Both the position numbers and the translations under genes were made by a program. This document shows, in pieces, positions 36,385 through 62,727 of a DNA stretch of 64,000 nucleotides. The notes beneath the pieces were generated by a model that saw nothing but the letters and a program-made list of their open reading frames with translations, was not told the origin of the DNA and did no database searches. The DNA lies in NCBI RefSeq assembly GCF_020026305.1, contig NZ_CP075691.1:434001-498000 (forward strand), in the 5' to 3' direction. Origin of the DNA: Streptomyces sp. 135 (GTDB lineage: Bacteria; Actinomycetota; Actinomycetes; Streptomycetales; Streptomycetaceae). How positions within the stretch are numbered: the stretch's first letter is position 1; the number at the start of each line of letters is the position of its first letter.

Positions 36385-37578
36385 ATGATGGAACACGAGA
36401 CCTCCCCCGTGGCCGAATCCCCCGCCTTCCCTTCGTCATCGTCCGCCCGCTCTCCCCTCCCCCGGCTCCCCTGGTTCGCGCGACCCGCCGCACGGTCCTG
36501 GACCTGCGCCCCGCCTCCGGCGGACGCCCACGCGTTCCATGCCGCGCTGCCCGGTTACACACCGACCGCCTTGCATGAACTGCCCGCACTGGCCGCGGAG
36601 TTGGGGGTCGCACGGGTCTTCGTCAAGGACGAGTCGGAGCGGCTCGGCCTGCCCGCGTTCAAGGCGCTCGGCGCGTCGTGGGCGATCCATCGGGTCCTGG
36701 CGGCGGCCTCGGACGACCGGCGGCTGTGCCTGGTCACCGCCACCGACGGCAACCACGGGCGGGCCGTGGCCAAAATGGCGCGGCAACTCGGTCTGCGCGC
36801 GCACGTCTTCGTCCCCGAGGGCGTCCACCCGGCGGCCGTGGCCGCCATCGGCGGCGAGGGCGCCGAGGTCACCACCGTGGCCGGGTCCTACGACGCGGCG
36901 GTGCGCAGGGCGGCGGACGCGGCCGGGGCGCCTGGCGCGGTGCTCATCCAGGACATGGCGTGGGACGGCTACGAGGAGGTTCCGGCGCTGATCGTCGAGG
37001 GGTACGCGACGCTGTTCTCGGAGGTGGACGCCCAACTGGCCGCGGCGGGCGCGCCGTCGCCGTCCCTGGTCGCGGTCCCGGTGGGCGTGGGGTCTCTGGC
37101 CCAGGCGGCCGTGGCGCATTACCGGAGCCGGCGGTCCGTCACGACGGCCGCCGGTGAGGCGCCCGCCGCGCTCCTTTCCGTGGAGCCGGAGGTGGCCGCG
37201 TGCGTCCTCGCGAGCCTCCGGGCGGGGCGGCCGACCAGCGTGGAGACCGGCGTGACCACGATGGCGGGGCTCAACTGCGGCACGCCTTCGACGCTCGCAT
37301 GGCCCGCGTTGCGCGACGGCCTGGACGCGGCGATCACCGTCCGCGACGCCGACAGTGCGGCGGCCATGCGCGACCTGGCGGACCTGGGCGTCTCGTCCGG
37401 GCCGTGCGGCGCCGCCTCCCTCGCGGGGGCGCGTGCCGCCCTCACGGGTGAGGGAAGTGCCGCGCGCCGGGCCGCTCTGGGCATCGGAGCCGCGTCGACG
37501 GTGGTGTTGATCAGCACCGAGGGGGCGGCCGCCACACCCCCGTCACAAGCTCCGCAAGCTCGCAAGGACCCCGTTTAA
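36385..37578 (+). CDS. Diaminopropionate ammonia-lyase-like PLP enzyme
   Basis: Fold-type II PLP enzyme of 397 residues. The cofactor lysine is Lys93 in GLPAFKALGASWA, the substrate-binding motif is TATDGNHGRAVA, and the C-terminal SSGPCGAASLAG loop matches the phosphate/SGPCG region of diaminopropionate ammonia-lyase and related threonine-dehydratase-like enzymes. It would release ammonia from a small amino acid to give a 2-oxoacid. ATG at 36385 or 36388. The N-terminus is Ser/Pro-rich. Control by the divergent LysR protein is likely. Confidence 0.87.
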   Translation: MMEHETSPVAESPAFPSSSSARSPLPRLPWFARPAARSWTCAPPPADAHAFHAALPGYTPTALHELPALAAELGVARVFVKDESERLGLPAFKALGASWAIHRVLAAASDDRRLCLVTATDGNHGRAVAKMARQLGLRAHVFVPEGVHPAAVAAIGGEGAEVTTVAGSYDAAVRRAADAAGAPGAVLIQDMAWDGYEEVPALIVEGYATLFSEVDAQLAAAGAPSPSLVAVPVGVGSLAQAAVAHYRSRRSVTTAAGEAPAALLSVEPEVAACVLASLRAGRPTSVETGVTTMAGLNCGTPSTLAWPALRDGLDAAITVRDADSAAAMRDLADLGVSSGPCGAASLAGARAALTGEGSAARRAALGIGAASTVVLISTEGAAATPPSQAPQARKDPV

Positions 37579-37680
37579 CCACGCCTGAGCGATGATTTCC
37601 GGTCGATACAGGTGGTCGAAAAAAGAACCAATTTCACATAGCTGCAGGTCGGGACGTAGTTAGCGTTTATACCAATGCCG

Positions 37681-37701
37681 CTTGTCCATATGCTGGACAA
37701 G
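37681..37701. promoter_or_regulatory. Inverted repeat and promoter region of the protease inhibitor gene
   Basis: CTTGTCC-N7-GGACAAG (perfect 7-bp arms) lies 167 bp before the inhibitor ATG. Just upstream, TTTATACC (from 37665) in an unusually AT-rich stretch offers a -10-like element, so the dyad would sit at the start of the transcript as operator or 5' hairpin. No gene is seen between 37579 and 37867. Confidence 0.5.
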
Positions 37702-37867
37702 CGCCGCGCGACCGGGCCACCGCTCCTGAGCTGCCCGAACCCTCGTACGGGAACCGTCCACCGGACGCACACATCCGGAAATCGACCATCCGCCTGGCAC
37801 TCACTCTCCGCACCGGCAAGACTCCCCACCGCAGTCACCAACCGCAACCAGCGAAGGAGAGTCCACC

Positions 37868-38308
37868 ATGCGTCGCACCCTCAGGACGATAGGAGCAACC
37901 GCCGCGGCGGCCACCTGCGTCCTCGCCGCGACATCAGGCACCGCGCAGGCCGAGGCACCGAAGCCGACGAGCCTCTACGCGCCCTCTGCCCTGGTGCTCA
38001 CGGTCGGCCAGGGCGAGGACGCCACCTCCGCGGCAGTCGAGCGTGCCGTGACACTGACCTGTGCGCCGCGCCCCGCCGGGACCCACCCGACGCCGGCCGC
38101 GGCGTGCGCCGAGCTCGCCGAGGTGGGGGGCCAGCCGACCCACCTGGTGCGCGACACGTCCAACGTCATGTGTACCAAGGAGTGGCAGCCGGTCACGGTG
38201 ACCGTCGCCGGTGTGTGGAACGGCAAGCATGTCGGCTGGTCCACCACCTTCGCCAACCGGTGCATGATGAAGGCGGGTCTCGGGGAGGGTGCCGCATTGA
38301 CCTTCTGA
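37868..38308 (+). CDS. Subtilisin-inhibitor-like secreted protease inhibitor (SSI family)
   Basis: Secreted inhibitor of 146 residues; signal peptide about 1-28 with cleavage after TAQA. The mature start SLYAPSALVLTVGQGEDA is typical of SSI. Four cysteines form the two conserved disulfides (65-80 and 102-132). The reactive loop reads NVMCTKEWQPV, which by SSI alignment places Lys104 at P1 and Glu105 at P1', so trypsin-like proteases rather than subtilisin would be the best targets. GAAGGAGA lies just upstream and a 12-bp terminator follows. SSI proteins control extracellular proteases during development. Confidence 0.95.
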   Translation: MRRTLRTIGATAAAATCVLAATSGTAQAEAPKPTSLYAPSALVLTVGQGEDATSAAVERAVTLTCAPRPAGTHPTPAAACAELAEVGGQPTHLVRDTSNVMCTKEWQPVTVTVAGVWNGKHVGWSTTFANRCMMKAGLGEGAALTF

Positions 38309-38382
38309 CGAGATCTCACCCTGATCCACACTCAGGGGAGTCCCGGTGACCTTTCGTGGGGGAAGGCTGCCGGGATGCGGGG

Positions 38383-38414
38383 CGGCCCCCGGTGTCCTCG
38401 GGCACCGGGGGCCG
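38383..38414 (+). terminator. Terminator of the protease inhibitor gene
   Basis: A perfect 12-bp stem CGGCCCCCGGTG/CACCGGGGGCCG with an 8-nt loop, 75 bp after the stop codon. It fits a highly expressed single gene. Confidence 0.88.
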
Positions 38415-38524
38415 TAGTGTTTCCCGCAGCCGCCGCCCGGCGAGGAGCCCGAGGAATCCGAGGAGTCCATGGTGAACCGTCCGACGCGCCCGCACCGTAC
38501 GCAGGACTGCCCGGCGGCGTCGGA

Positions 38525-38994
38525 GTGTCACGGCTGAGGGTGTACGACTGGCCGGCCGCCGATGGGCGGCAAGGCGGAACTCCCCATGTGCACCCGACCT
38601 GTTCGGAGGGGTACGCGGTGACCGGCGGCCGCGGCGCCGTGCAGACCCTGACCGCTGCCGGCTTCCAGGAGACGCCCCTGTCGCCCGGGGCCCTGGTGTG
38701 GTTCACGCCCGGGACCATCCACCGCCTGGTCAACGACGGCGACCTGACCCTCCACGTCCTCATGCAGAACTGCGGGTTGCCCGAGGCGGGCGACGCCGTC
38801 CTGACCCCGCTCGGTGGCGTGAGCGCTGGCGGGCCGGGGCCGCCGCCGCGGCCGAGGTGACCGCCACGCAGCTGGACCGGCTCGAACGCGGCGAGGCCGA
38901 CTATCTGGCGCACGCCGTCGTGCGGGCCGAACAGCCGTCAGAACGCGGAAAGTTCGGCATGTGTGGACGGCTGGACGTCTACGACGTGGCGTGA
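38525..38994 (+). pseudogene. Cupin-domain protein gene with a frameshift
   Basis: From a GTG at 38525 the frame encodes a cupin: RLRVYDWPAADG, metal-site-like TPHVHPTCSEGYAVTGG and TIHRLVNDGDLTLHVLMQN. It meets TGA at 38858-38860. At about 38806 the meaningful frame moves by one base and continues as DPARWRERWRAGAAAAAEV to the TGA at 38992-38994. One lost base restores a single protein of about 156 residues. The ribosome binding site is weak. A sequencing error is possible. The end overlaps the convergent YunG-like gene by 16 bp. Confidence 0.7.
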
Positions 38995-39401
38995 ACGGCC
39001 GCCGTGGCACGCTCACGCGCCACCTCGTCGAGCCTGCTCGACACGCGTGTGCGCAGCAGCTCGTACTCCTCCCGGCAGTGGCGGATCTCCGGCGGTCTGA
39101 CGACGGCGACGCCCTCCGTCACGGTCTCGCCCGGCAGGAACTGGCCCCGGGTGAGGTCGATCTCCACCCCCGAGGCGAGGCGGTTCCACCAGTGGTATCC
39201 CGTCCGCTCGCCCGCGACGTGGACCTCGCCGAGTATCAACTCGCCGCCCAGCAGGTCGTTCACGACGAGCGCGGTGACGCCGCACTGGTCCCGCGCCGGA
39301 TTGTCCGGCGGCCAGGTCTCACCGGAACGCGGGTCGGCCGTGTCCGCGCCCCAACTGTCGCGCAACGCCGCCTCGATGTCGCTCAAGAGCAGTGGTGTCA
39401 T
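38979..39401 (-). CDS. YunG-like hypothetical protein
   Basis: Protein of 140 residues: DIEAALRDSWGADTADP, then the conserved-looking RDQCGVTALVVNDLLGGELI and GYHWWNRLASGVEIDLTRGQF. The Cys, His and Asp in these segments resemble the YunG group, a small cysteine-peptidase-like fold with unproven activity. ATG at 39401 chosen for the match to the family start; the sequence upstream (GAGAGTGAACGGC) gives only a modest ribosome binding site. Confidence 0.72.
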   Translation of the reverse strand: MTPLLLSDIEAALRDSWGADTADPRSGETWPPDNPARDQCGVTALVVNDLLGGELILGEVHVAGERTGYHWWNRLASGVEIDLTRGQFLPGETVTEGVAVVRPPEIRHCREEYELLRTRVSSRLDEVARERATAAVHATS

Positions 39402-39534
39402 GCCGTTCACTCTCGCACCGACCACTGACAATCATGCGTCGTCGCAGCTCAGGGGTGCCTCGTCGGCATGCGAACTCACCCACCGCACACCGCCCACCTG
39501 TCTGGCGCCCACACGCCTGGCGCACAATGTGCCC

Positions 39535-40068
39535 ATGCCCCCTCAGATCACCGCCGACGAGATCCGCACCGCCCGACTCGACCTCGTACCGCTGCGCGTC
39601 GAGCACGCCGCCGAGATGGCCGTCGTGCTCGGCGACCCCGCGCTGCACACCTTCATCGGCGGCTCCCCCGACGACGCCGAGGCGCTGCGGAACCGCTACC
39701 GGCGGATGCTCGCGGGCTCCTCCGACCCCGGTGTCTCCTGGTGCAACTGGGTCGTCGGCTTCCGGGAGGGCTCTCGGGAGGGCGAGCCCGCGCCCCTGGT
39801 CGGGACGGTGCAGGCCACTGTCGTGCCCGGCGCACAAGGCGCCCTCGCGGAGATCGCCTGGGTGATCGGAACGCCCTGGCAGGGGCGCGGCTTCGCCTCG
39901 GAGGCGGCCCGGGGCCTGGTGGACTGGCTGGCGGGACAGGGCGTACGGACGCTGGTCGCGCACGTCCACCCGGACCACGGCGCGTCCGCGGCCGTCGCGG
40001 CGGCGGCCGGTCTCGCCGCCACGGACGAGGTCCACGACGGCGAGATCCGCTGGGAGGCGTCCCTGTAG
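39535..40068 (+). CDS. GNAT family N-acetyltransferase
   Basis: Acetyltransferase of 177 residues of the RimJ/RimL type: TARLDLVPLRVEHAAEMAVV at the start and acetyl-CoA motif A EIAWVIGTPWQGRGFASEAA near 120. The substrate is unknown. ATG at 39535 gives the usual length; the preceding 130 bp are free of other genes. Confidence 0.88.
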   Translation: MPPQITADEIRTARLDLVPLRVEHAAEMAVVLGDPALHTFIGGSPDDAEALRNRYRRMLAGSSDPGVSWCNWVVGFREGSREGEPAPLVGTVQATVVPGAQGALAEIAWVIGTPWQGRGFASEAARGLVDWLAGQGVRTLVAHVHPDHGASAAVAAAAGLAATDEVHDGEIRWEASL

Positions 40069-40093
40069 GGGCGGAAGTCGGCAGGGGCGGAAG

Positions 40094-41041
40094 TCAGTAG
40101 GGGCGGTCGCCCGCTATCGCGACCCGTTCCGCCACGCGGCGGTGGGGGGCGTAGTCGTCGACGGCGTAGTGCTGGGTGGCGCGGTTGTCCCAGAAGGCGA
40201 CGTCGCCCGCCTGCCAGTGGAACCGCACCTGGTACTCCGGCACATGGGCCTGGCGCACGAGGAGGCTCAGCAGGCGGTCGCTCTCCTCCCGCTCCATGCC
40301 GACGATGTGCGTGGTGAAGGAGGTGTTGACGAAGAGCATCCGGCGCCCGGTCTCCGGATGCGTGCGCACCACGGGGTGGGTGACGGGCGGGAAGCGGTCC
40401 TGGAGCGGGGCGAGCCGGTCGGGCCCGTAGAAGCGGGCGAAGCCGGGGATGAAGTCGTGCACGGCCCGCGCGCCCTCGACGCGCTCCTTCACGGCGTCGG
40501 GGAGGTTGTCGTACGCGGCGGCCATGTCGGCCCACAGCGTGTCTCCGCCGTACGGCGGCACCTCGCGCAGCTGCAACACGGCGCCGAGAGCGGGGCGTTC
40601 GCGGAAGGTGACGTCCGCGTGCCAGACGTTCTCGTACGTCGGGGTGGCGCTGCCCCCCTTGTCGAAACGGACGACGTCGTCGGCGGAGCCGCGGGCGAGC
40701 AGCGGATTGGTCTCCAGCTCACCCCAGTTGAGGGCGAAGGCGCGCTGCTGCTCGGCCGTGATGGCCGCGCCGCGGAAGAACAGCACCTTCCACTCCAGCA
40801 GCGCGCGGTTCAGCTCCTCGTGCAGGGCGGGCGTGAGGGGCCGCGCGAGATCGACGCCGCGGATCTCGGCGCCGATGAGGCGGCCCTGGGGCACGACGTC
40901 GATCAGTTCGTACGGCCGCTCCTGCCACCCCTCGGGCAGCCGGCGCAGGGTGCGGCGGCCTTCGTACATGCCGTCGGCGGGGACGCGGGCTTCCCGCAGA
41001 GGGGCGTGGGGCAGGGCTGTGGTGCGGTCCGTGGCAGTCAT
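40094..41041 (-). CDS. TauD/TfdA family 2-oxoglutarate dioxygenase
   Basis: Non-haem iron dioxygenase of 315 residues. The iron triad is His141-x-Asp143 in VWHADVTFRERP and His291 in TQHYAVDDYAPH; Arg302 in HRRVAER should bind 2-oxoglutarate. Taurine dioxygenases release sulfite from sulfonates, and sulfate-ester members also exist; which applies here is unknown. AAGGATC precedes the ATG. A 209-bp inverted-repeat element starts 60 bp upstream and separates the gene from whatever promoter lay to its right. Confidence 0.93.
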   Translation of the reverse strand: MTATDRTTALPHAPLREARVPADGMYEGRRTLRRLPEGWQERPYELIDVVPQGRLIGAEIRGVDLARPLTPALHEELNRALLEWKVLFFRGAAITAEQQRAFALNWGELETNPLLARGSADDVVRFDKGGSATPTYENVWHADVTFRERPALGAVLQLREVPPYGGDTLWADMAAAYDNLPDAVKERVEGARAVHDFIPGFARFYGPDRLAPLQDRFPPVTHPVVRTHPETGRRMLFVNTSFTTHIVGMEREESDRLLSLLVRQAHVPEYQVRFHWQAGDVAFWDNRATQHYAVDDYAPHRRVAERVAIAGDRPY

Positions 41042-41100
41042 GGGGAGATGATCCTTCGGGTGCGGAAGCGGGCGGGCCGGGCGGAGCGGACTCCGTACGG

Positions 41101-41309
41101 CTAGGGCCTGTCTGACGATTCCCGTCGTCGCCCGGAGGGCGGCCTCGCGGCGTCAGGTGCGTGCTCTCGGCGTGCCGGGCGTAGGGCCTCGTACTGGATG
41201 TACTTGGCCCTGCGCCCGGTGCGGCGAGTGGGGGCACCCCCTGCTCGAAGAGCTCGGGGGAGCGTGCATGGCGTCGCGAGGCAGGCGGGAACTGTCAGAC
41301 AGGCCCTAG
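41101..41309. mobile_element. Miniature inverted-repeat element, long form (209 bp)
   Basis: Perfect 16-bp terminal repeats CTAGGGCCTGTCTGAC (41101-41116) and GTCAGACAGGCCCTAG (41294-41309) bound a non-coding, structured interior, including GGGGGCACCCCC (41231-41242) and a GGGCC...GGCCC dyad around TACTGGATGTAC. The terminal CTAG could be a duplicated 4-bp target, which would fit the YTAR preference of the IS5 family. A second copy at 62651-62727 has the same ends in inverted order. No transposase is encoded, so it would need one in trans. Confidence 0.88.
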
Positions 41310-41383
41310 CGGCCCGATCGCTCGCACCCGCGCCGCCACGGGACGCCGAACGTCCGTACGGCGGCGGTCAGGTGCTGGATCAT
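41306..41383 (-). CDS. Leader-like 25-codon ORF running into the element, doubtful
   Basis: ATG at 41383 encodes MIQHLTAAVRTFGVPWRRGC and five more residues, then TAG supplied by the element's CTAG end. No clear ribosome binding site precedes it. Its position upstream of the TauD gene would suit a leader peptide interrupted by the insertion; it may equally be chance. Confidence 0.25.
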   Translation of the reverse strand: MIQHLTAAVRTFGVPWRRGCERSGR

Positions 41384-41395
41384 GGTCGTCAGTGT

Positions 41396-41433
41396 GGGGC
41401 GCCACGCGCCCCAGGTCAACCGCCCCCGGGCGG
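41396..41433 (-). terminator. Hairpins after the DUF574 methyltransferase gene
   Basis: Two small stems follow the DUF574 stop on the minus strand: CCGCCcccGGGCGG-type (41420-41433) and GGGGCG-N5-CGCCCC (41396-41412). Together they make a plausible terminator. Confidence 0.55.
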
Positions 41434-41434
41434 C

Positions 41435-42307
41435 TCAGCCCTCCTGGGGCCGCACCCGCAGCACTCCCCCGTACTCGTAGATGCCCTTGTTGAGTTCGGT
41501 GGCGCCGAGGTAGGGCACCAGGTCGGGGTCGACGGGGGCGAGCGGCGGCTGCTGGGGGTCGGGGCGCCAGTCGACGAGGTTCACGAGGCCCGGCTCCAGC
41601 GGTTCGAAGCCGGCGAAGAGGGCGTCGACCTCGGCGGGGGTGCGGGTCTGCCACGGGACGCCGCCGCCGGAGATGTGCGCGGTCATGGCCGCGCCCCGGG
41701 CGGGATCGTCGGCGACGACCTGCGAGAAGCCGAGGAGGCTGCCGGGCGCGGCCCGGTCGATGACGGTCCGCAGGATGCGGCCCGGCCCGTCGGCGTCGGT
41801 GAGGTGGTGCCCCACGGAGAGGAAGAGCACGGCGAGCGGCTCGTCGAAGTCGATGAGTCGCACCAGGTCGGGGTGGTCCAGGATCGCCTTCTGGTCGCGC
41901 ATGTCGCCGGTGATCACGGTGGTGGAGGCGTCGTCGGCGAGCAGCGCGCGGCCGTGCGCGAGGACGATCGGGTCGATGTCGACGTAGACGACGCGGGCGT
42001 CCGGGACGAAGCGCCGCGCGACCTGGTGGACGTTGTCGTCGGTGGGCAGGCCGCAGCCCATGTCGATGAACTGGCGGATGCCCGCCTCGCGCGTCAGGTA
42101 CCGCACCGCGCGGAAGAGGAATTCGCGGTTCTGCCGGGCGATGTCGACGCACTCCGGGAACGACGGCAGAGTGGAGAGCAGGAAGCTGCGGTCGACCTCG
42201 TAGTTGTCCTTGCCGCCCAGCATCCAGCCGTAGGCGCGTGCGGAGGTCGGGATGTCGTACGGAATCGAGGGACGGGACTCCGTCTCGGACCGGTTCTCGC
42301 TGTCCAC
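41435..42307 (-). CDS. DUF574 SAM-dependent methyltransferase
   Basis: Protein of 290 residues of the large actinomycete DUF574 group: SARAYGWMLGGKDNYEVDR at the start, then SAM-site segments RQFIDMGCGLPTDDNVHQVA and ARVVYVDIDPIVLAHGRALL. Streptomyces genomes carry many paralogues, often beside regulatory cvn-type genes, with unknown substrates. GTG at 42307 follows GGAGAG by 6 nt. The reading frame stays open for thousands of bases upstream only because of GC-rich codon bias. Divergent from lpdA. Confidence 0.9.
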   Translation of the reverse strand: MDSENRSETESRPSIPYDIPTSARAYGWMLGGKDNYEVDRSFLLSTLPSFPECVDIARQNREFLFRAVRYLTREAGIRQFIDMGCGLPTDDNVHQVARRFVPDARVVYVDIDPIVLAHGRALLADDASTTVITGDMRDQKAILDHPDLVRLIDFDEPLAVLFLSVGHHLTDADGPGRILRTVIDRAAPGSLLGFSQVVADDPARGAAMTAHISGGGVPWQTRTPAEVDALFAGFEPLEPGLVNLVDWRPDPQQPPLAPVDPDLVPYLGATELNKGIYEYGGVLRVRPQEG

Positions 42308-42565
42308 AGTGCGCTCTCCACCTCTCCCGTGGGGTGCACGGAATGTGTGCCGTCGGAGTGACACTATCCGGTGATCCACGTTCGGGTGAGCGGAAGGCGG
42401 GAACCGCAACAGGCGTGTGCCAGGGGGCGGTTGAGGCGCCGACGGGGCGTGTGGGCGCCGGGATCCGCCGGGGCGGGCAGTGGTGTGCGCCACCCGCCCG
42501 CCATCCCGGCCGCCGCATGGCGCATGATCGTGGCCAGAGCCATCCGCACCCAGAGAGGACCTTCC

Positions 42566-43969
42566 ATGGAAGACCGCTTCGACGTCGTCGTGCTCGGAGC
42601 AGGACCCGGCGGCTACGTGGCCGCCGTCCGCGCCGCCCAGCTGGGCAAGCGGGTCGCGGTCGTCGAGGAGAAGTACTGGGGCGGTGTCTGCCTCAACGTC
42701 GGCTGCATCCCGACGAAGGCGCTGCTGCGCAACGCCGAGCTGGCCCATCTCTTCACGCACGAGCAGAAGACGTACGGCATCAAGGTCGACGGGCAGGTGT
42801 CCTTCGACTACGGCGAGGCGTTCAGCCGCAGCCGCACGGTAGCGGACGGCCGGGTCAAGGGCGTCCACTTCCTGATGAAGAAGAACGGCATCACGGAGTT
42901 CGACGGCCGGGGCACGTTCCTGGACGCGAACACCCTTCAGGTGGCGAAGTCCGACGGCACGACCACCACGATCGGCTTCGAGAACTGCATCATCGCCACC
43001 GGCGCCACGCCCCGGCTGCTGCCCGGCACGAGCCGCAGCGAGCGCGTGGTCACGTACGAGGAGCAGATCCTCGCCGATTCCCTGCCGCGCTCCATCGTGA
43101 TCGCGGGCGCGGGCGCGATCGGCATCGAGTTCGCCTACGTCCTGCACAACTACGGCGTGAAGGTGACGATCGTCGAGTTCCTCGACCGCGTCGCGCCGCT
43201 GGAGGACGCGGATGTGTCGAAGGAGCTCGCGAAGCAGTACCGCAAGCTCGGCATCGACGTGATGACCTCGACGCGCGTGGAGTCGATCGACGAATCGGGC
43301 GAGCAGGTCCGGGTGACCGTCACGGGCAAGGACGGCAAGCAGCAGACCCTGGAGGCCGACAAGGTCCTCCAGGCCATCGGTTTCGCGCCGAACGTCACCG
43401 GTTTCGGCCTGGAGGCGACGGGCGTGGCGCTCACCGAGCGCGGCGCGATCGATGTCGACGGCCGCTGCCGTACGAGCGTCCCGCACATCTACGCCATCGG
43501 TGACGTCACGGCGAAGCTGATGCTGGCGCACACCGCCGAGGCCATGGGCGTCGTCGCCGCCGAGACCCTCGCGGACGCCGAGACGATGGAGCTCGACTAC
43601 CCGATGATCCCGCGCGCCACCTACTCGCAGCCGCAGATCGCGAGCTTCGGCTGGACGGAGGCGCAGGCCAAGGAGAAGGGCTTCGACGTCAAGGTCGCGA
43701 AGTTCCCCTTCCAGGCGAACGGCAAGGCGCACGGCCTCGGCGACACCGTCGGCTTCGTGAAGATCATCAGCGACGCGAAGTACGGCGAGATCATCGGCGC
43801 CCACCTGATCGGCCCGGACGTGACCGAGCTGCTGCCCGAGCTGACCCTGGCGCAGCAGTGGGACCTCACCGTCCATGAGGTGGCGCGCAACGTCCACGCG
43901 CACCCGACGCTGGGCGAGGCCGTCAAGGAAGCGGTGCACGGCCTGGCCGGACACATGATCAACTTCTGA
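42566..43969 (+). CDS. lpdA: Dihydrolipoyl dehydrogenase
   Basis: FAD-dependent E3 component of 2-oxoacid dehydrogenase complexes, 467 residues, which reoxidises dihydrolipoamide with NAD+. FAD-binding [14 protein letters not shown], redox disulfide [19 protein letters not shown]-binding [17 protein letters not shown] and the C-terminal His-Glu pair in [16 protein letters not shown] are all present. ATG at 42566 follows AGAGAGGA. It stands alone with no E1/E2 genes, as is common in Streptomyces. A GC-rich hairpin follows. Confidence 0.95.
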
Positions 43970-44003
43970 CGGCGCCGGAAACGGGCCGCGGGAGACCGGG
44001 GGC

Positions 44004-44053
44004 GCCCCGCCGCGACGCGAGTGACTCAAATCGAGTGGCTCGAGTGGCGGGGC
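44004..44053 (+). terminator. Putative terminator after lpdA
   Basis: GCCCCGCC (44004-44011) pairs with GGCGGGGC (44046-44053) around a loop with three GAGTG repeats. It begins 34 bp after the lpdA stop and ends 69 bp before the next gene. Confidence 0.5.
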
Positions 44054-44122
44054 CGCCCGGACCGGCCGATGCTGGTCGGAACACGACTGTGATGCCTCGG
44101 GGGCGAGGAGAGGCAGTAGCCG

Positions 44123-46291
44123 ATGTTCTCTGGTCTGGGCCGTTTCGTGGTCCGCCGTCCTTGGTGGATCATCCTGGCGTGGGTGGTGGTGGCCGGCGCG
44201 GTGATCTCGCTGGCGCCCAAGCTCACCTCCAGCAGCGACGAGGCGAGTTTCCTTCCCGACCATTACGAGTCGATCCGCGCGACAGACGTACAGGAGAAGG
44301 AGTTCCCGAAGCAGCAGAACGTGGGCGCCATCATCGTCTTCGAGCGGTCCGACGGCGGGAAGCTGACGGCCGCCGACTCCGCCGACGTGGTCCGCGTCTC
44401 CAAGGATCTCCAGGCGAAGAAGATCGGGGAAGTACAGGGCGTCGTGCCCGGCGAGGTCTCGCCCAACAAGCTGGTGCAGACGTCGGTCGTCGCGATGCCG
44501 AAGATCACCGACCCCGAGGACACCTCGCAGCAGGACGCGGTCGAGCAGCTGCGCGAGGACCTCAAACCCGAGCTGAGCGGCACGGACCTGTCGGCCGGGA
44601 TCACCGGTTCCGCGGCCCAGGCCCTCGACGAGCGGGACGCCTCCGAGCGCGCCGGCATGCTCGTGGGGGTCGGCACGATCGCGATCATCATCGTGCTGCT
44701 CCTGGTCATCTTCCGCAGCCCCATCATCGCGCTGCTGCCCGTCGTGCTCATCGGTCTCATCTCGCCGATGGCGACCGGGCTGATCGCCTCCGCCAACAAG
44801 GCCTTCGACATGAAGGCGGACTCCTCCATCCAGGAGCTGCTGACCGTCGTCCTGTTCGGTGTCGGCACGGACTACATCCTGTTCCTGCTCTTCCGCTACC
44901 GGGAGGCGCTGCGGGCGGGCGAGGATCCGAAGGGCGCCATGGTGCATGCCGTGGAGCGGGTCGGTGAGGCCATCACGTCGGCGGCGGGCGCCGTCATCGT
45001 CGCCTTCGCCGCGCTCACGCTCTCCTCGCTCGGCATGCTGCGCTCGATGGGTCCCGCGCTCGCCATCGCCGTCTTCGTGACGCTGCTGGCCGGTCTCACG
45101 CTCGTACCGGCAGTGGTGTCGCTGCTCGGCACGAAGGTGTTCTGGCCGTCGAAGTCCTGGCAGCGGGAGCCGCACGGCAGCGGTTTCGCCCGGCTCGGCG
45201 CGTCGATCGCCCGCAAGCCCGCCGTGTGGGCGGTGGTCTCGGCGCTGTTCATGGGCGCGTTGACGCTCGGCGCGCTCGGCTACAAGGCCAATTTCGACCT
45301 CGCCGGGTCCTCGCTGCCGAAGGACAAGGAGTCGATGGTCGCGATGCGGGACCTGGAGAAGGGCTTCCCCGCCGGTTCCACCGACCCCACCTCCGTCTAC
45401 CTCTCCTCGACGGACGACGAGCCGCTGACCAAGGCGCAGGCCGCCGGCTTCCGCGAGCGGCTCGGCGATGTCCCGGGCGTGGGCGAGGTCGCGGCGCCGC
45501 GCATGAGCCCGGACGGTACGACGGCGTCGTACTCGGTGATCCTCTCGGACCCGCCCGCCTCCGACAAGGCGCTCGCCACCCTCAAGGACCGGCTGCGCCC
45601 CACCGCCCACGAGGAGGCGCCGGCCGGCTCCGAGGCGCTGGTCGGCGGTGTCACGGCGGTCTACGTCGACATCAACAAGGCGGTGGACCGCGACTATTCG
45701 GTCGTCTTCCCCGTGGCGGCCCTCGCCATCATGGTGATCCTGGGCCTGCTGCTGCGCAGCCTCGTGGCGCCGTGGTACCTGATGCTGTCGGTCGCGCTCG
45801 GTTTCGGCGCGACGCTCGGCGCGACCTCGCTGCTCTTCCAGCAGCTCGGCGACCAGCCGGGGCTGATGTTCATGCTGCCGGTGATCATGTACTTGTTCGT
45901 GGTCGCGCTCGGCACCGACTACAACATCCTCATGGTGTCGCGCCTGCGCGAGGAGGCCCGTGAGGGCCGCGGTCCGCACGACGCGGCCGGCACGGCGGTG
46001 CGGCACTCGGGCCCGACGATCGGCTCTGCGGGCGTGATCCTCGCCGGAACGTTCGCGACGCTGATGCTGGCGGGCAACTCGACGCTCTCCCAGATGGGTT
46101 TCTCGCTCTCCTTCGGCATCGTCATCGCCGCCTTCGTCATGGCGGCGGTCTTCACGCCCGCTCTGACGGCCCTCATCGGGCACGCGGCCTGGTGGCCCGG
46201 CCACGGGGACGAGAAACGGGACGGAGGCGGCGGGGCGGCCCCGCCCGGCCCGGAGGAGGAGCGGGTGGGGGACGCGTCGCGGACGGGGTGA
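44123..46291 (+). CDS. MMPL family RND-type transporter (second)
   Basis: Membrane protein of 722 residues with two six-helix halves. The first helix follows FVVRRPWWIILAWVVVAG; the proton-relay Asp-Tyr pairs are FGVGTDYILFLLFRYR and VALGTDYNILMVSRLRE. Extracytoplasmic loops follow helices 1 and 7. It is of the YdfJ type found in many actinobacteria, with lipid or drug export as likely roles. GAGGAGAGG precedes the ATG. The C-terminal tail is Gly/Pro/Glu-rich. No regulator is adjacent. Confidence 0.93.
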   Translation: MFSGLGRFVVRRPWWIILAWVVVAGAVISLAPKLTSSSDEASFLPDHYESIRATDVQEKEFPKQQNVGAIIVFERSDGGKLTAADSADVVRVSKDLQAKKIGEVQGVVPGEVSPNKLVQTSVVAMPKITDPEDTSQQDAVEQLREDLKPELSGTDLSAGITGSAAQALDERDASERAGMLVGVGTIAIIIVLLLVIFRSPIIALLPVVLIGLISPMATGLIASANKAFDMKADSSIQELLTVVLFGVGTDYILFLLFRYREALRAGEDPKGAMVHAVERVGEAITSAAGAVIVAFAALTLSSLGMLRSMGPALAIAVFVTLLAGLTLVPAVVSLLGTKVFWPSKSWQREPHGSGFARLGASIARKPAVWAVVSALFMGALTLGALGYKANFDLAGSSLPKDKESMVAMRDLEKGFPAGSTDPTSVYLSSTDDEPLTKAQAAGFRERLGDVPGVGEVAAPRMSPDGTTASYSVILSDPPASDKALATLKDRLRPTAHEEAPAGSEALVGGVTAVYVDINKAVDRDYSVVFPVAALAIMVILGLLLRSLVAPWYLMLSVALGFGATLGATSLLFQQLGDQPGLMFMLPVIMYLFVVALGTDYNILMVSRLREEAREGRGPHDAAGTAVRHSGPTIGSAGVILAGTFATLMLAGNSTLSQMGFSLSFGIVIAAFVMAAVFTPALTALIGHAAWWPGHGDEKRDGGGGAAPPGPEEERVGDASRTG

Positions 46292-62650: not shown

Positions 62651-62727
62651 CTAGGGTCTGTCTGACAGTTCCCGCCTGCCTCGCGACGCCATCCGGGCGA
62701 CGACGGGAATCGTCAGACAGGCCCTAG
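62651..62727. mobile_element. Miniature inverted-repeat element, short inverted form (77 bp)
   Basis: Ends CTAGGGTCTGTCTGAC (62651-62666) and GTCAGACAGGCCCTAG (62712-62727), one mismatch. Its left 41 bp match the reverse complement of 41269-41309 (one mismatch) and its right 36 bp the reverse complement of 41101-41136, so it is the 41.1-kb element turned round and lacking 132 internal bases. The right CTAG supplies the TAG stop (62726-62724) of the acyl-CoA dehydrogenase gene. Confidence 0.9.

Follow-up and report, generated by a model that had tools for sequence, protein, structure and literature searches.

The window, a stretch of 64,000 nucleotides from the genome of Streptomyces sp. 135 (positions 434,001 to 498,000 of NZ_CP075691.1), contains at 41101-41309, on the plus strand, a miniature element of 209 bp, counting the CTAG at either end. 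It sits between two minus-strand genes and adjoins no stop codon. By the product names in the annotation of Streptomyces sp. KN37, the left-hand gene (40094..41041) encodes a TauD/TfdA family dioxygenase and the right-hand gene (41435..42223) a SAM-dependent methyltransferase. The longest open reading frame of the dioxygenase gene begins 59 bp left of the element, and the KN37 start corresponds to base 40969; the methyltransferase stop lies 125 bp from the right end of the element. None of the 26 listed open reading frames of at least 60 aa around the element falls wholly inside the 209 bp, and the element carries no evident gene of its own.

The sequence CTAGGGCCTGTCTGAC forms the left end of the element and its reverse complement the right end. 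The perfect 16-bp terminal repeats of the original prediction are thus there in full (16/16), though their CTAG part is target duplication. The longer arms, 41100-41124 and 41286-41310 (25 nt each), are 92% complementary. Since the corresponding empty site (L251) has a single CTAG, the inverted repeat proper is best taken as 12 bp, with the other four terminal bases, CTAG at 41101..41104 and at 41306..41309, lying outside the element as the duplicated target. The 12-bp repeats, identified by the match between the arms and common to the IS5-family elements L147 and L150, are GGCCTGTCTGAC at 41105..41116 (plus strand) and its partner at 41294..41305 (minus strand).

Between the ends lies a conserved core, a predicted hairpin RNA (41147..41277, plus strand), which was delimited with a core alignment (A1) and a covariance model (R1) and is marked by covariation and G-U asymmetry in 61 non-redundant copies. 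It includes an optional inner hairpin (41229..41266, plus strand) that is missing in short variants of about 163-181 bp. The dyad-rich interior noticed earlier amounts to one hairpin: the 209 nt of the plus strand fold at -165.3 kcal/mol (shuffle mean -104.8, z -13.4) and those of the minus strand at -133.8 kcal/mol (z -10.3), with 0 of 200 shuffles as stable in either case. In Rfam 15 nothing matched window 40900-41500 above its gathering score, and the two matches at E≤1 reached 21.4 and 20.6 bits against thresholds of 61 and 85. The inner hairpin of the long variant (element positions ~129-166) is also present alone at other places in the genome, in weak matches that are not copies (L014, L015 and L016, at 4010850, 6393178 and 7018950 of G000:C1), an arrangement that looks like the insertion of a separate small palindrome.

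The genome of Streptomyces sp. 135 (G000; 8.83 Mb, one contig) holds eight full-length copies of 208-209 bp with 96-100% identity, among 16 matches at E≤0.001 in total. The partial copies include two internally deleted ones (161 bp and 77 bp) and one one-ended fragment of 52 bp. Ten copies are two-ended, and all copies are at unrelated sites, which bears out the proposed family of miniature elements; the terminal repeats cannot be put down to chance because of the copy number. CTAG stands at both sides of seven of the eight full copies, while L007 has CAAG at one end. In a search of the genome with the end pattern, all 19 hits with 0 or 1 mismatch belong to copies; with three mismatches a reversed control gave 124 matches and the pattern itself 81, and the weaker hits mean little. 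The covariance model of the core gave eight full matches in this genome, one that is the 161-bp copy, and two weak ones on the opposite strands of copies.

The second copy said to share both ends is the 77-bp one, at 62651..62727 of the window on the minus strand. It has both ends and lacks the core; the neighbouring gene to the right of this copy is predicted to stop at the TAG of the copy's right CTAG. A 77-bp copy in another species (G216) is identical at 72 of 77 positions and has the same deletion junction at another locus with other flanks. The core is not needed for movement, because this core-less form occurs with one junction at different loci in two species.

Filled and empty sites were compared by joining 70 bp of each flank of the ten copies around one CTAG and searching 295 genomes of the genus. 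Among the matches listed, some spanned the junction at four of the ten sites (L001, L002, L007, L008) and none did at the other six. Thirteen candidate places were compared, and three align cleanly through a single CTAG: in G081 the empty site of the window copy (88% over 97 columns), and in G163 those of L002 and L008 (both 96%). The remaining ten lack the element too, and their flanks or junction have diverged; one of them, L263, keeps the CTAG at 77%. Because the clean empty sites carry one CTAG, the flanking CTAGs are read as duplicated target, a reading in which duplication of CTAG and of TA within a fixed CTAG look the same. The element is therefore short and dispersed, has 12-bp perfect repeats and no transposase gene, and shows target duplication and empty sites. 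By these features it classes as a MITE with IS5-type ends, its mobility being shown by the comparison of genomes and its helper presumed.

The element is widespread in the genus. Matches at E≤0.001, counting short partial ones, were found in 152 of 199 genomes (its own included). With the covariance model of the core at E≤1e-6, 13 of 296 genomes across the class matched, all of them among the 28 listed genomes of the window's genus; none of the genomes of the other 113 genera matched under these stricter filters, which lose weak matches. A 23-nt piece of the core occurs in at least 115 stretches of named genomes; of 80 listed core stretches, 77 are from Streptomyces, two from 'Actinobacteria bacterium OV450' and one from Kitasatospora paracochleata. 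Twenty plasmid records have a match, including a partial one on an Embleya plasmid. The element is not strictly confined to Streptomyces, given Kitasatospora and the partial match on the Embleya plasmid. Phage records gave no match to the element, and a 30-nt end query of the plasmid records gave nothing of use. The near-identical genome of KN37 carries the insertion at the window site: window 37101-45309 corresponds to NZ_CP139046.1 68039-76247 (8.2 kb, 99.87% identical). That record is labelled plasmid unnamed2 (577 kb), and here the region is on the single contig of the genome; the difference reflects either arm exchange or assembly labelling.

The ends, which the original prediction had linked to the IS5 family, were sought on longer elements. 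A first, tighter pattern matched in none of 61 genomes. The end pattern followed by ATG matched in 41 of 392 genomes of the genus, with several of the matches in longer elements. The 16-bp ends of L147 (1671 bp) and L150 (1670 bp) are identical to those of the miniature, perfect on both sides, and both elements have CTAG flanks. Two shorter elements also have both 16-bp ends perfect: L142 (1338 bp), found at the place of L121, and L152 (1291 bp), at that of L141. In L146, L143 and L155 one end is altered. One end of L150 reads CTAGGGCCTGTCTGACAATTCCCGTCGGA; its first 27 bases agree with the window copy at 26 of 27 positions and with L050 at 27 of 27, and the similarity to the miniature ends ~27 bp from the terminus. 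L150 encodes an IS5-family transposase in two frames, both halves of which score above the cut-off of NF033580 (NCBIfam, IS5_3). For L147 the first half is above and the second below it (85 bits against 110). The passenger of L150 is a methyltransferase (PF13649), and L147 has a similar methyltransferase open reading frame. The target defined for IS5-type elements is YTAR, which CTAG satisfies, and the linkage to the family thus holds for both ends and target.

Elements of this family with a methyltransferase-like passenger lie at L147 787-2457, L150 793-2462, L146 758-2433 and L121 184-1521, the last being a shortened form. They come from four Streptomyces genomes (G267, G115, G263, G120), with the family match made for the L150 open reading frame only.

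In Streptomyces sp. 135 itself, no autonomous element with window-type ends was found with the end pattern at up to three mismatches or with the L121 transposase piece as query, and L153, the closest transposase piece in this genome, has no window-type ends nearby. The local helper therefore appears to be missing or lost. The IS5-family elements L077 and L174 of this genome bear other ends. Its IS5-type elements at L077 255-1565, L173-L176, L178 and L180 have CTAG flanks (once TTAG) and ends unlike the window type; several of them share CTAGGTTCTGTCGTCAAATG, which is close to the B-type miniatures described below. The miniature was likely moved in trans by a separate IS5-family transposase recognising its ends.

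Nine of the ten two-ended copies in Streptomyces sp. 135 have a predicted gene whose TAG stop is formed by the flanking CTAG, the window copy being the exception. Genes for the analysis of siting were predicted by codon GC pattern, not taken from annotation. Four sets of sites gave 110 distinct ones, of which 75 were classifiable; 6 inside predicted genes and 29 unclear ones were left out. Forty-six of the 75 lie between convergent genes, 23 between tandem and 6 between divergent ones; 47 adjoin one stop, 6 adjoin two and 22 none, so that 53 of 75 are at a predicted TAG stop. Background CTAGs (58 of 104, after leaving out 23 inside genes and 23 unclear) were at a stop in 22 cases (P 2e-4) and between convergent genes in 10 (P 2e-7), a comparison in which the background comes entirely from Streptomyces sp. 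135 (40 stretches, 791 kb; 855 kb with the window) and the element sites from many species. Convergent pairs make up 88 of 522 background gene pairs, and about a quarter of the CTAGs sampled in the 855 kb (35 of 129) are predicted TAG stops. A stricter flank test was positive at 23 of 30 miniature sites and at 4 of 11 long elements; for comparison, 12 of the 105 other CTAGs of the loci and 2 of 9 window CTAGs passed it. In this test L050 enters twice, with different ends, and L002 drops out because its right repeat has an indel. In shifted frames there were 2 matches in 60. The parent-like L147 and L150 both adjoin predicted stop codons. At L003, L048 and L127 the CTAG on either side is the predicted stop of a gene, the two genes being convergent, as if they had shared one palindromic CTAG before the insertion.

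A role of the structured strand as the sense 3'-UTR of the adjoining gene was tested and found no support: this strand is sense in 14 cases, antisense in 10, both in 2 and neither in 35. A second set, the miniatures of genome G392, gave 6 sense, 7 antisense, 0 both and 10 none. The lack of strand bias towards the adjoining gene argues against a simple 3'-UTR or regulatory role.

When copies from different genomes are aligned, the interior is conserved and the ends differ. Of 81 core matches, 61 had ends inside the set limits and 20 did not. CTAG was found on both sides in 41 of these 61, on one side in 16 and on neither in 4, counts that are not independent evidence for CTAG since the ends were sought near it. 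Among 61 non-redundant copies of several origins nine end types were distinguished: B (16), F (13), A (12, the window type), C (8), D (4), E (3), I (2), H (2) and G (1), with letters and borders being our own. Ends like B, C and D occur on the IS5-family elements L174, L164 and L168, respectively. Altogether four end types resemble IS5-family ends and one IS630-family ends; E, G, H and I were matched to no IS.

The F-type ends (CTAGTGCCGCGGCAGGCAACG) are unlike the others. Genome G392 contains 25 two-ended F-type miniatures of 169 bp (at loci among L410-L438), one of which has CTGG for CTAG on one side. The 23 of them that were read fall into five distinct sequences and each copy has its own flanks, a pattern that points to a recent burst of activity. 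G392 also contains L439 432-2169, an element of 1738 bp flanked by CTAG whose two ends are F-like (CTAGTGCCGCATCAGGCAACG); it encodes an IS630-family transposase (NF033545; DDE_3) and a GNAT acetyltransferase passenger. Its ends differ from those of the G392 miniatures at 3 of 21 bases (left) and 2 of 21 (right), and are without difference from one end of the F-type copy L283. Because the F-type miniatures and this IS630-family element have like ends, one core appears to be borne by ends like those of two transposase families with the common target CTAG. The interior was also considered as a remnant of an IS and this was rejected, as the same core lies within other IS5-like and IS630-like ends and the L150 similarity stops ~27 bp in.

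It is quite possible, if short of probable, that a single structured-RNA module is a transposon-agnostic passenger of Streptomyces, repeatedly re-capped with about nine kinds of ends from CTAG-targeting transposons of at least two families (IS5 and IS630), with selection keeping the RNA form and not the DNA ends. As a guess, ends could be exchanged by nested insertion at CTAG followed by copying from arm to arm. What is new is a core that stays constant while the ends change, together with its strand-specific, RNA-like evolution. Among the matches listed from the open-access PMC literature, none describes this Streptomyces element in its title or the start of its abstract.

The plus strand folds better in all 35 copies of the first set, with 7-16 G-U pairs against 0-4 on the other strand. 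A better plus-strand fold alone could reflect ancestry. Likewise, the greater stability of one strand in 61 of 61 copies was rejected as proof of selection, as these copies were fetched by one exact 23-nt core piece and share ancestral G-U pairs. In 16 copies Watson-Crick double changes occur at 25 of 83 pairs. In the alignment A1 (20 copies of the core) there is a double change at 8 of 41 pairs and the covariation term is -2.82 of -66.49 kcal/mol; in this alignment MAFFT misplaced the short variants, so that RNAalifold mispairs part of the 3' arm, and the model R1 was used for searching only. A non-redundant set was made by reducing 97 copies to 61, with 82 consensus pairs drawn from single folds. 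At 38 of the 82 pairs, Watson-Crick pairs have changed on both sides, and 92.6% of cells are paired, compared with at most 82.8% in 300 shuffles.

The core pairs of the 61 copies contain 568 G-U and 10 A-C cells. Because the fetched copies share ancestral G-U pairs, the test was confined to pairs with a Watson-Crick majority. Here 106 G-U cells stand against 10 A-C cells, and sites with at least two such copies number 15 and 0. When each site contributes one count per end type, G-U stands against A-C at 51 to 9 in the core (P 3e-8) and at 24 to 17 in the terminal arms (P 0.35), the difference between core and arms having P 0.005; these counts are not strictly independent and the P values are rough. 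With the poorly aligned F rows removed, the counts become 40 to 7 in the core and 17 to 11 in the arms, at P 0.025. Some of the fixed G-U pairs are accounted for by GTGCGTGC, which stands on both arms in direct orientation and could be a DNA site. Covariation and the G-U against A-C asymmetry thus strengthen the suggestion that the interior dyads act as RNA structure. The core is likelier a strand-specific RNA, though folding of single-stranded DNA also tolerates G-T. We infer that the core is kept because its RNA form matters and that the RNA is expressed.

With good confidence, the element can be described as a non-autonomous Streptomyces element that duplicates CTAG, probably relies for its movement on an IS5-family transposase acting in trans, and has a core predicted as a strand-specific hairpin RNA. 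A transposase would bind the 12-bp inverted repeats and insert the element at CTAG. Because the target is duplicated, the TAG stop would be rebuilt and the protein left unchanged. The least costly insertions would be those between convergent genes, and the hairpin left there may end transcription from both sides. Different transposon ends with the common CTAG target would have acquired the core on repeated occasions.

A somewhat doubtful alternative takes the element for an ordinary MITE of IS5 type: its palindromic interior would be a feature of the DNA (arm copying, protein-binding sites or a cruciform) and would play no part as RNA. This departs from the description above in the RNA part only, and the likelihoods given to the two overlap. 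The ends, the target and the dispersal are ordinary for such elements, the core-less copy spread too, there is no orientation bias relative to genes, and the covariation term in A1 is small. The arms of a palindrome can moreover stay matched by copying from one to the other. Such copying, however, gives Watson-Crick pairs and no excess of G-U on one strand, whereas the core has 51 to 9 and the ends, which act as DNA, 24 to 17.

The siting bears on an unlikely reading in which the element is a portable bidirectional terminator or insulator, kept as helpful to convergent genes. The hairpin is strong on both strands, and 46 of 75 sites are convergent while background CTAGs (10 of 58) and gene pairs (88 of 522) seldom are. 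But the same siting arises from selection against damage to promoters and genes, a terminator needs neither conserved sequence blocks nor G-U pairs on one strand, and the stem of the window copy has no T run after it on either side. The presence of the window-locus copy in the near-identical KN37 would suit an immobile operon leader or regulatory repeat conserved at orthologous sites. This reading is nonetheless given practically no weight: the ends are found on copies at unrelated loci, not only at orthologous operon leaders, and relatives have empty sites with one CTAG, which refutes it.

The hairpin-forming MITEs of bacteria include Correia/NEMIS, ERIC and Nezha, short repeats that give rise to transcripts with long hairpins, some of them cut by RNase III. 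The likeness to the present element lies in the hairpin; the hosts and the sequences are other ones. To our knowledge they have not been described as swapping the ends of different transposase families around a single core. REP and REPIN elements are small palindromes associated with a tyrosine transposase. REP sequences are palindromes of 20-40 bp by size, according to the available part of the source (PMC3733652), and the element, with 209 bp and a duplicated CTAG, does not belong to the REP/REPIN group. MITEPsy1 of Pseudomonas syringae (100 nt, 18-nt terminal inverted repeats, listed as 'IS5?') inserts at CTAG or YTAA with a 4-nt duplication, and new insertions of it were trapped in vivo (PMC3189936). 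It is like the window element in being short and in its inverted repeats and CTAG target; unlike it, no structured core, exchange of ends or siting at stop codons is described in the available portion of that article (PMC3189936). In the Rhodococcus equi transposon TnRErm46/ISRe46, the TAG of the duplicated CTAG serves as the stop for some target genes, so that these are uninterrupted, as reported in the accessible part of the paper (PMC6794481). CTAG target and TAG stop are thus common to TnRErm46 and the miniature, but the former is a 6.9-kb transposon with an IS481-family transposase and other ends, as that portion of the paper describes it (PMC6794481). Given this precedent, a gene-sparing CTAG target that doubles as a TAG stop is not new as a principle (PMC6794481).

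Further comparable elements are in Streptomyces itself. L147 and L150 share with the miniature the 16 terminal bases, the CTAG flanks and the adjoining predicted stop, and differ from it in their length of 1.67 kb, two-frame transposase, methyltransferase-like open reading frame and lack of a hairpin core. L439 is like the F-type miniatures of its genome in ends and CTAG flanks, and unlike the window element in its IS630-family transposase, GNAT passenger and different ends.

The normal view of a MITE is that it derives by shrinkage from a single parent IS. In this family it is the interior that stays constant and the ends that vary, a reversal of the usual logic which suggests that the unit of replication can be an RNA hairpin that hires helpers. 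The core is a candidate structured RNA, widespread in an industrially important genus and not represented in Rfam 15. A harmless way of landing, with CTAG as a TAG stop that the duplication would rebuild, is known from one Rhodococcus transposon and would be used at scale by these miniatures. The hairpins left between convergent genes may also shape the ends of transcription.
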